Shown here piece after piece: positions 17,126 through 22,323 of a stretch of 64,000 nt of DNA. The notes beneath the pieces are model-generated. The model was not told where the DNA came from, did no database searches, and worked only from the letters and a program-made list of their open reading frames with translations. The DNA is taken from the NCBI GenBank assembly GCA_945861895.1, contig CAMAWF010000002.1, forward strand, positions 41,073 to 105,072, read 5' to 3'. The stretch comes from Rhizobium sp. Q54. Its GTDB lineage: Bacteria; Pseudomonadota; Alphaproteobacteria; Rhizobiales; Xanthobacteraceae. The position numbers and the translations under genes are program-made. Numbering within the stretch: the stretch's first letter is position 1; each line of letters begins with the position of its first letter.

Positions 17126-19927
<2,802 letters not shown>

Positions 19928-20009
19928 GTTCAACAGCGCCAATTGACTTTGACTGCGTAGTGCACTCCACAGCTTTTCAACCTTATTTTCTATATTGTTT
20001 TCAATAGGA

Positions 20010-20335
20010 TACTTGCCGAAGCGCAAAATCATTAAACTTTTTTCAGAATGGAACCTTGTTCCGCCGCTTTTCGCCACCATCTCATTCGTGCCTTTAGACA
20101 ATTGGGCTAAGGGGGAAGGCGTAAGCTTCGTCAAGTGCGCCGGTCGTTCCGACCAGGCACTCGACGATAGCTTCGGTCATCGTCATGAAGATGATGATGG
20201 TGATATGAAGCATGGCGTTATGTCCTTCTTGATTATAGCGCATCGCGTAATTTTGCGGACGACTACGGATGATGGTCGAAAGTAAGTTGGTTTCGGAGGG
20301 GACATTGGCAGACGCGCGCCAGCGCCCCTCCGAAC
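20010..20335 (+). ncRNA. Candidate structured ncRNA upstream of the reverse transcriptase (boundaries uncertain)
   Basis: Successive hairpins: AAGCG/CGCTT around GGAAC-CTT-GTTCC; CCTTTAG/CTAAGGG; CGTC-GTGC-GGTCG-TTC-CGACC-GCAC-GACG; CATCGTCAT-GAAG-ATGATGATG; TTCGGAGGGG/CCCCTCCGAA. Confidence 0.55.
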
Positions 20336-20356
20336 TTGCTAATTCATGGACCGCGT

Positions 20357-21637
20357 ATGTTTCAGAAGCGAAAAGTCCGACAAGACGGCTGGTATATTAA
20401 AAAGTCATTTCCGCACTTCGATTTGCCGCTCAATTTCGAAGAAGCAAAAACAATCGTCACCGACCCAATTTACGTATCTCATAAATCATTTTGGCCTTTT
20501 ATTGGGTTTGTCGATCAAAAGCGAAAATTCAAAAAAATTGATGGCGAAGTCACCATTAAATTAAAAGAGCGACCACTTCGTTATTGCTCTCATCACGATG
20601 GGTATGTCCATTCATATTATGCAGCGCAGCTTACCGCAAAATACGAGGCGCGCATTAAGGCTGAAAAAATCGACAACGTGGTAATCGGCTATCGCCAAAA
20701 TGTTGGCACGAACGTTCACATGGCTAAAGCTGCGTTTGATGAAATTCGTAGGCGCGGTGACTGCGTTGTCATTGCTCTTGATATAGAAAGTTTCTTTGAC
20801 AGCATTGATCATAGAATACTGAAAGCCAATCTCCAGTCAGTCTTGGGCGTGCCGCGACTCACTACAGATTGGTTCAAGATTTTTAGGTCGATGACTGAGT
20901 ATTCATGGGTCGAGATTGCTTCGCTTGCACAGCGGCTAGATTTTGACGTTCGCGAACCGCCGCGACCACTATGCTCGGCTCCGGAATTCAGAAAGATAGT
21001 GCGCGGCGATGACGGTGTTTTACCAAGCGTTGTGCAGACGAACGCTAAAAATTACGGGATACCACAGGGGTCGCCGATATCTGCGGTTTTCTCCAACGTC
21101 TATATGCTGTGCTTTGACCAGGCGTGCGTGAAGCATTTTGATGTAATCGATGTATTTTTTCGTCGCTACTCGGATGACATTATCGCGATCTGCAATGCGA
21201 GCCAGCAAGCAGCGGTGATAAATTTCATCACTAACGAAATATCTAACCTCGGACCTTCGATGAAGGTTAGCGCTGAAAAGACAGAAACCTCATCATTCTC
21301 CTTTTCGCTCGACTGGGCATTATCTTGTGATCGACCCATCACCTATCTTGGACTGACGTTTGACGGAGCGCGAACGCTCCTGAGAGGGCGAACTGTCTCT
21401 CGATACTATCGGCGAATGACGTATGCAGCGCGACATACCGCTAAGACCGCTGCGAGAGCAAAATCGAAAAAAATATTTATGCGGAAGCTTTATAGTGACC
21501 TGTCGCACCTCGGCAAACAGAACTTTTATTCTTACGCTAAAAGCGCAGCCGCAACGTTAGGTGACAACGCTCCAGTTCGTCAGCTAAGGCGGCACGTAAA
21601 AATTCTGCGACGTAAGGTGACCACGCTCGGGCGATAA
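20357..21637 (+). CDS. Stand-alone reverse transcriptase, putative antiviral DRT-family (DRT2-like)
   Basis: RT motifs VIALDIESFFDSIDH, NYGIPQGSPISAVFSNVYM, FFRRYSDDIIAIC; ~426 aa, no maturase or other fused domain; low GC relative to neighbours. Confidence 0.88.
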   Translation: MFQKRKVRQDGWYIKKSFPHFDLPLNFEEAKTIVTDPIYVSHKSFWPFIGFVDQKRKFKKIDGEVTIKLKERPLRYCSHHDGYVHSYYAAQLTAKYEARIKAEKIDNVVIGYRQNVGTNVHMAKAAFDEIRRRGDCVVIALDIESFFDSIDHRILKANLQSVLGVPRLTTDWFKIFRSMTEYSWVEIASLAQRLDFDVREPPRPLCSAPEFRKIVRGDDGVLPSVVQTNAKNYGIPQGSPISAVFSNVYMLCFDQACVKHFDVIDVFFRRYSDDIIAICNASQQAAVINFITNEISNLGPSMKVSAEKTETSSFSFSLDWALSCDRPITYLGLTFDGARTLLRGRTVSRYYRRMTYAARHTAKTAARAKSKKIFMRKLYSDLSHLGKQNFYSYAKSAAATLGDNAPVRQLRRHVKILRRKVTTLGR

Positions 21638-21815
21638 TATGTCTACTCCTTATTGACAATCACCACATCTAGGATTATATTCCACAATCCCATCCACTGA
21701 GGGCGTTTTCATGAGACGTCATGACAGCGGGCGGGATGGGAGCGGCCCCTGCGCGCGGGGACCAGCGGCGGCGCCCGCGCGCCCGAAACAACAGGGGCGG
21801 CGAAGCTTGCGCGCT

Positions 21816-21924: not shown

Positions 21925-21948
21925 CCCTCCCCCGCAAGCGGGGGAGGG
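21925..21948. repeat. REP-like hairpin
   Basis: CCCTCCCCCGC-AA-GCGGGGGAGGG, perfect 11-bp stem. Confidence 0.85.
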
Positions 21949-22062: not shown

Positions 22063-22323
22063 ATGCACCGCACGTTGTGCCGCCTCTCCGCCCTCGCCGC
22101 ATTGGCGGCGCTCGCCGCGTGCACCGTCAGCGGCACCGTCAACCAGCCCGCGCCGAGCGAAGCCGCCGCGCCCGCCCTCTCGCCGGCAGAGCAAACGCAA
22201 CAGGCGCGAACGGAATGCTGGATGCGGATCGAAAAGCAGAACGCCGCCCAGAACATCGACAAGCGCATCGCGCTGGTCGACAAATGCGTCAGCGATAAAA
22301 TGAAGGCGCAGGCGGCCCAATGA
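22063..22323 (+). CDS. Small lipoprotein, unknown function
   Basis: MHRTLCRLSALAALAALAACTVSG lipobox; overlaps the next ORF by 4 nt. Confidence 0.7.
   Translation: MHRTLCRLSALAALAALAACTVSGTVNQPAPSEAAAPALSPAEQTQQARTECWMRIEKQNAAQNIDKRIALVDKCVSDKMKAQAAQ

Follow-up and report, generated by a model that had tools for sequence, protein, structure and literature searches.

A gene for a stand-alone reverse transcriptase (RT) lies between uvrB and a small lipoprotein-like gene in a 64,000-nt stretch of Rhizobium sp. Q54 DNA (contig CAMAWF010000002.1, positions 41,073 to 105,072; hereafter the window), and we analysed it, together with the region upstream, as a probable member of the DRT2 family of anti-phage RTs. 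The uvrB open reading frame (ORF) ends at 19927 and its product carries the UvrB, UvrB_inter and UVR domains; the lipoprotein-like gene occupies 22063-22323 and is followed by a gene for an SH3_3 protein. The RT ORF, 20357-21637 (+), is uninterrupted and encodes 426 aa containing the three expected RT motifs (VIALDIESFFDSIDH, YGIPQGSPISAVFSNVYM and FFRRYSDDII), with RVT_1 as the sole Pfam domain. Two start candidates exist, ATG 20357 and an in-frame TTG at 20336, and the choice between them is uncertain. GC content was 0.42-0.49 across the gene and 0.60-0.69 on either side of it. A previous examination of the letters alone (the sequence-only reading) had described the intact ORF with these motifs, the lack of a fused domain, the AT-rich composition and the position between the two genes, and on all these points it proved correct.

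Several lines of evidence assigned the RT to DRT2. The PADLOC Drt2 models scored 443 and 375 bits (E = 4e-133), compared to 77 bits (6e-22) for the best non-Drt2 model, and the NCBIfam Drt2 equivalog NF041746 gave 432.8 bits, above its cut-off of 390. The closest solved chains by sequence were those of Klebsiella DRT2 (E = 2e-65). An AlphaFold model built with 30 aligned relatives (pLDDT 93.2) matched the solved DRT2 structure 9c0i with a template modelling (TM) score of 0.89 over the whole 9c0i length, and model and Pfam together revealed the DRT2 fingers and long straight thumb in a stand-alone protein devoid of added domains. The Asp triad D142, D273 and D274 was unchanged across 30 DRT2 proteins, and in an RT tree the window RT fell into a three-member clade nested within the broad DRT2 tree. 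The generic nature of the RT motifs and weak matches to other RT models would also be compatible with an RT from a group II intron, a retron or another unknown-group (UG) type; however, the corresponding models scored hundreds of bits under Drt2 and under their own cut-offs (76.9 bits versus 300 for the group II maturase TIGR04416), and query-normalised TM scores were at most 0.57 to group II, DRT9 and retron RTs. Family-model scores and fold comparison thus refuted such an identity, to which we give practically no credence. Taken together, family models, predicted structure and invariant residues indicate that the product is a genuine DRT2 RT. The sequence-only reading had preferred DRT2 over other RT families, a preference upheld by the models, by the nearest structure in both sequence and fold and by the tree, but it had not noticed the upstream template, the Neo frame, the junction promoter or the unusual motif described below.

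In Klebsiella, the template for the DRT2 RT is a 120-nt part of a non-coding RNA (ncRNA) encoded upstream; it lies between two ACA triplets and is copied head to tail, and the concatenated product contains a promoter and a stop-free reading frame, neo (PMC12039810, PMC11100668). When the reverse complement of positions 20119-20244 of the window was concatenated, a TTGACG-N17-TATAAT promoter (11/12 bases, exact spacing) spanned the junction. In the genomic, unjoined arrangement the order of both elements is wrong and their separation is 97 bp, the 17-bp spacing arising solely after concatenation, and no promoter was detected when the upstream region was scanned in its unjoined form. The concatemer of this 126-nt unit contains exactly one stop-free frame, whose product MRYNQEGHNAMLHITIIIFMTMTEAIVECLVGTTGALDEAYA is hydrophobic-biased, and we predict that the reverse-strand concatemer encodes the Neo effector of this DRT2. 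A strict detector (promoter with at least 11/12 bases at N17, repeat of at least 6, unit multiple of 3, stop-free) recovered this arrangement as the sole match on both strands of the 64-kb window, with 2 chance matches in 1.01 Mb of other real sequence (the fetched loci), and none of 1500 dinucleotide-shuffled versions of the upstream region passed it. As a control, the scan script recovered ACA and 117 nt in Klebsiella-like loci.

Relatives were then compared; a search of genome contigs with a single protein as query gave none that was close, and an alignment query gave 80. Two relatives share the plan of the window locus. In L019, a Hyphomicrobiales metagenome-assembled genome whose RT is 53% identical, the flanks are GTTATC/GTTATC, the unit is 123 nt, the junction promoter TTGACG-N17-TACAAT and the homologous Neo VVRYNEEGCRAMLFISYLNSLKNLLTVTLLAVLAALLDGDN. 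In L159, from the family of the window genome (RT 57.5% identical), they are GTA/GTA, 120 nt, TTGACG-N17-TATAAT and SVSYNVEGYNSMHFIGRVIVTLAIHAGKFMALAIGLDGSY, respectively. The RTs of the three loci differ at about half of their residues and the unit lengths also differ, all being divisible by three. Relatives in this subclade are few and sporadic, which could suggest a DRT2 remnant, or a diverged RT no longer making Neo, in which the open concatemer frame is a leftover. This explanation is very unlikely to be right, as the RT ORF is intact with its catalytic residues conserved, and the locus retains its promoter, the spacing, the frame, the start signals and the paired motif all at once, as do the two diverged relatives.

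To examine the flanking repeat more broadly, the repeat unit was set in 64 DRT2 loci by the junction promoter and open frame alone, and flank agreement was inspected afterwards. The flank triplets agreed 8 bases before the -35 element in 22 of the 64 loci (17 GTT and 2 GTA) and 6 bases before it in 13 (9 ACA), with about 1 expected; the shoulder seen at offsets seven and nine (CGT in most cases of the latter) stems from longer repeats surrounding GTT. When the 3' copies were dealt among the loci, mean agreements were 10.0 and 3.0, and the observed 22 and 13 were never reached in 5000 deals. The identical pipeline yielded 0-1 flank matches on shuffled sequence. When only the promoter was used to define the unit, its length was divisible by three at 42 loci out of 56, and 38 of these 42 units were stop-free. 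Placed on the RT tree, the motif labels required 2 changes, the minimum for three states. Among labelled loci, ACA formed one clade of mostly gamma- and betaproteobacteria (Klebsiella-like), some of its labels deriving from the repeat-aware scan; GTA comprised the window and L159, adjacent to L019 with GTT; and GTT occurred on the other branches, those of the deepest split among them, and in several phyla. This distribution makes GTT the probable older state and ACA a derived one, and suggests that the two copies in the window changed together from GTT to GTA.

Jumping might instead be set by RNA structure in a DRT2 that does make Neo: the 5' handle would stall the RT, and GTA/GTT would be kept for another reason, such as the promoter spacer or RT binding. 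According to a suggestion by Wilkinson et al. (PMC12039810), the RT is stalled by RNA elements that are tightly bound, and several loci, for example L022 and L058, share only GT at the junction. Against this, both copies change in step (GTT to GTA in the window, ACA in the Klebsiella clade), matches within a locus far exceed those between loci, and disruption of the ACA homology abolished defence by Klebsiella DRT2 (PMC11100668), so we consider a purely structural jump improbable. On balance we favour the existence of at least two jump codes in DRT2, namely GTT (offset 8, several phyla, probably ancestral) and ACA (offset 6, derived, in the gamma/beta Klebsiella-like clade), with GTA as a third in which both copies have changed, the identity of the copies mattering and not their sequence. 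Neither a GTT nor a GTA class was described in the DRT2 papers we examined, a set that did not extend to the final Science version of Tang et al. or its supplement.

Some groups of loci displayed other arrangements. In a Rhodobacterales DRT2 clade (L057, L060, L063, L065, L079, L084 and L011) the template regions are highly conserved, but no TTGACA/TATAAT pair of good quality spans the predicted junction with a 17-bp spacing; motifs such as CCAG or TTAACA/TATGTT are candidates there and point to another promoter type or spacing. In the Pseudomonas loci L023, L027 and L044, the best promoter pair (17-bp spacing) yields a 125-nt unit, not a multiple of three and interrupted by stops; the jump boundary may add one base there or differ. 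In the deepest DRT2 subclade (L018, L095, L163, L164 and L169) the flanks are often GTTGA (5') versus GTCGA (3'), with one regular central mismatch.

The arrangement in the window resembles that of Klebsiella pneumoniae DRT2 (9c0i; PMC12039810, PMC11100668) in the single RT (~425 aa there) with the same overall fold, the predicted upstream RNA with a template whose length is a multiple of three and a putative 3' hairpin domain, the stop-free antisense concatemer frame, and the sigma-70-like promoter with a 17-bp spacer formed solely across the junction and followed, after the -10 element, by a ribosome-binding site and ATG. It differs in that the RTs are about 32% identical, the unit is 126 nt instead of 120 nt, and Neo sequence and host group are distinct. 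The ACA/ACA flanks of the Klebsiella-type subgroup, located 6 nt from the -35 element, are replaced by GCGTAA/GCGTAA, with the core GTA 8 nt from it. DRT9 and DRT10 are also UG RTs that repeatedly copy a short ncRNA template, but they belong to other RT families (TM of the window RT to DRT9 at most 0.48) and neither of their products, a homopolymer and short tandem repeats, respectively, is a gene.

We therefore propose, by comparison with the Klebsiella system, that the RT would bind an ncRNA from about 20088-20345 and copy the template from 20244 down to 20119. The cDNA, ending in the complement of GCGTAA copy 1, could then re-anneal to the identical copy 2, which lies immediately 3' of the template, so that copying would restart. 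Repeated jumps would generate a concatemer of 126-nt units with the predicted junction GACGAAGCTTACGCGATGCGC, the complement of copy 1 joined through copy 2, and each junction would set TTGACG and TATAAT 17 bp apart, opposite the ncRNA strand and beside a Shine-Dalgarno sequence and ATG. Phage infection would trigger double-stranding and Neo expression, and the cell would turn dormant; for RNA binding and priming, the phage trigger, synthesis of the second strand, translation of Neo and dormancy we rely on the work on Klebsiella DRT2 (PMC12039810, PMC11100668). The locus is very probably a DRT2 anti-phage system that was acquired horizontally, is apparently intact, makes Neo through a 126-nt concatemer and belongs to the GTT class, with GTA in both copies.

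The 417-nt upstream region is alignable with that of L019 and has a fold z of -2.8. Three pairs of the 3' tower hairpin are altered on both sides relative to L019; the candidate template hairpin is invariant in both sequences and therefore carries no covariation information, and the 5' handle region pairs differently in the L159 fold. Rfam RF03016 (RT-12) matches the Klebsiella-like loci L101 (2346-2480) and L105 (2338-2461), where the matched segments represent the 3' domain of the ncRNA, and leaves L019 unmatched. The corresponding region of the window is likewise predicted to form a long hairpin, yet this DRT2-associated RNA model gave no match at the locus at E up to 5, indicating that the published model misses the class to which the window belongs. 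That missing match should be counted against our interpretation, as should the following observations. The pairing statistics for window and L019 are weak, because only two sequences were compared, and no sigma-70-like promoter was found upstream for the ncRNA itself. The repeat of L159 consists of the GTA core alone; the three outer bases of the hexamer are therefore dispensable, and the full repeat was dropped as a requirement. Lastly, a motif was assigned to only about 40 of the 108 RTs in the tree, and the loci are related and partly near-duplicate, so that the counts are not independent.

Table 1 Features of the DRT2 locus, in positions of the window
Feature	Positions	Strand	Basis
AT-rich cassette missing from the uvrB-lipoprotein interval of a congener	19928-21720	no strand	GC content and congener comparison; limits approximate
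Predicted ncRNA with template	20088-20345	+	Ends inferred from Klebsiella ncRNA layout
Candidate 5' handle hairpin CCTTTAG...CTAAGG, weak	20091-20112	+	Fold z = -1.1; -3.2 in L019
Candidate template hairpin, GAAGG (20115-20119) with CCTTC (20224-20228)	20115-20228	+	Invariant in both sequences compared
Template / repeat unit, 126 nt = 42 codons	20119-20244	+	Paired repeats, frame, promoter
Predicted Neo repeat, 42 aa, stop-free	20119-20244	-	Homologous units in L019 and L159
Putative template-jump repeat copy 1, GCGTAA, core GTA 20121-20123	20119-20124	+	Sequence
-35 element TTGACG, predicted junction promoter	20129-20134	-	Sequence of concatemer
Predicted neo start ATG	20211-20213	-	Sequence
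Shine-Dalgarno AAGGA of predicted neo, ATG 9 nt further on	20223-20227	-	Sequence
-10 element TATAAT, predicted junction promoter	20232-20237	-	Sequence of concatemer
Putative template-jump repeat copy 2, GCGTAA, core GTA 20247-20249	20245-20250	+	Sequence
Candidate buttress hairpin, weak	20260-20278	+	Fold z = -1.4
Predicted 3' scaffold tower hairpin, 10-bp outer and 3-bp inner stem	20292-20334	+	Fold z = -4.4 versus shuffles
DRT2 RT, 426 aa, catalytic D142 / YSDD (D273, D274)	20357-21637	+	Family models, structure, invariant residues

Difficulty in locating Neo genes has been reported for divergent DRT2 clades, with alternative mechanisms raised as a possibility (PMC11100668). The GTT/GTA jump motif offers an answer to this difficulty. 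The window locus, a new member of the known DRT2 system that leads into a class of variants whose jump motif is GTT/GTA, suggests together with its relatives that the mechanism is unchanged and the jump motif alone differs, in which case Neo should be predictable in many more bacteria. The difference from the published ACA may extend to much of the DRT2 family, and variants of the motif bear on how the RT finds its restart point, a question shared with telomerase repeat addition.

Regarding its origin, the congener L141 has uvrB, about 340 nt and then a homologue of the lipoprotein gene of the window, where the same gap measures 2135 nt because the AT-rich cassette is present. The comparison of the region downstream of uvrB that the sequence-only reading had proposed thus came out in its favour, DRT2 being absent there in a congener. 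No target-site duplication was seen at the cassette in a repeat search. DRT2-like RTs were present in 2 of 44 genomes of the window's genus, and the second one (L164) comes from a distant DRT2 subclade and lies on a contig other than that of uvrB, pointing to an independent acquisition. The locus is apparently a complete DRT2 locus acquired horizontally, whose role in defence we infer by analogy with the characterised system. An 18-nt G+C-rich palindromic element occurs at 19728-19745 and 21926-21947, so the flanking palindromes of the sequence-only reading do exist; they are incidental and were rejected as part of the cassette, since L141, without DRT2, has a similar one in its uvrB tail. In the window, over 19700-19927, the uvrB frame continues through the palindromic element, and the uvrB tails of congeners are similarly variable and palindrome-bearing.
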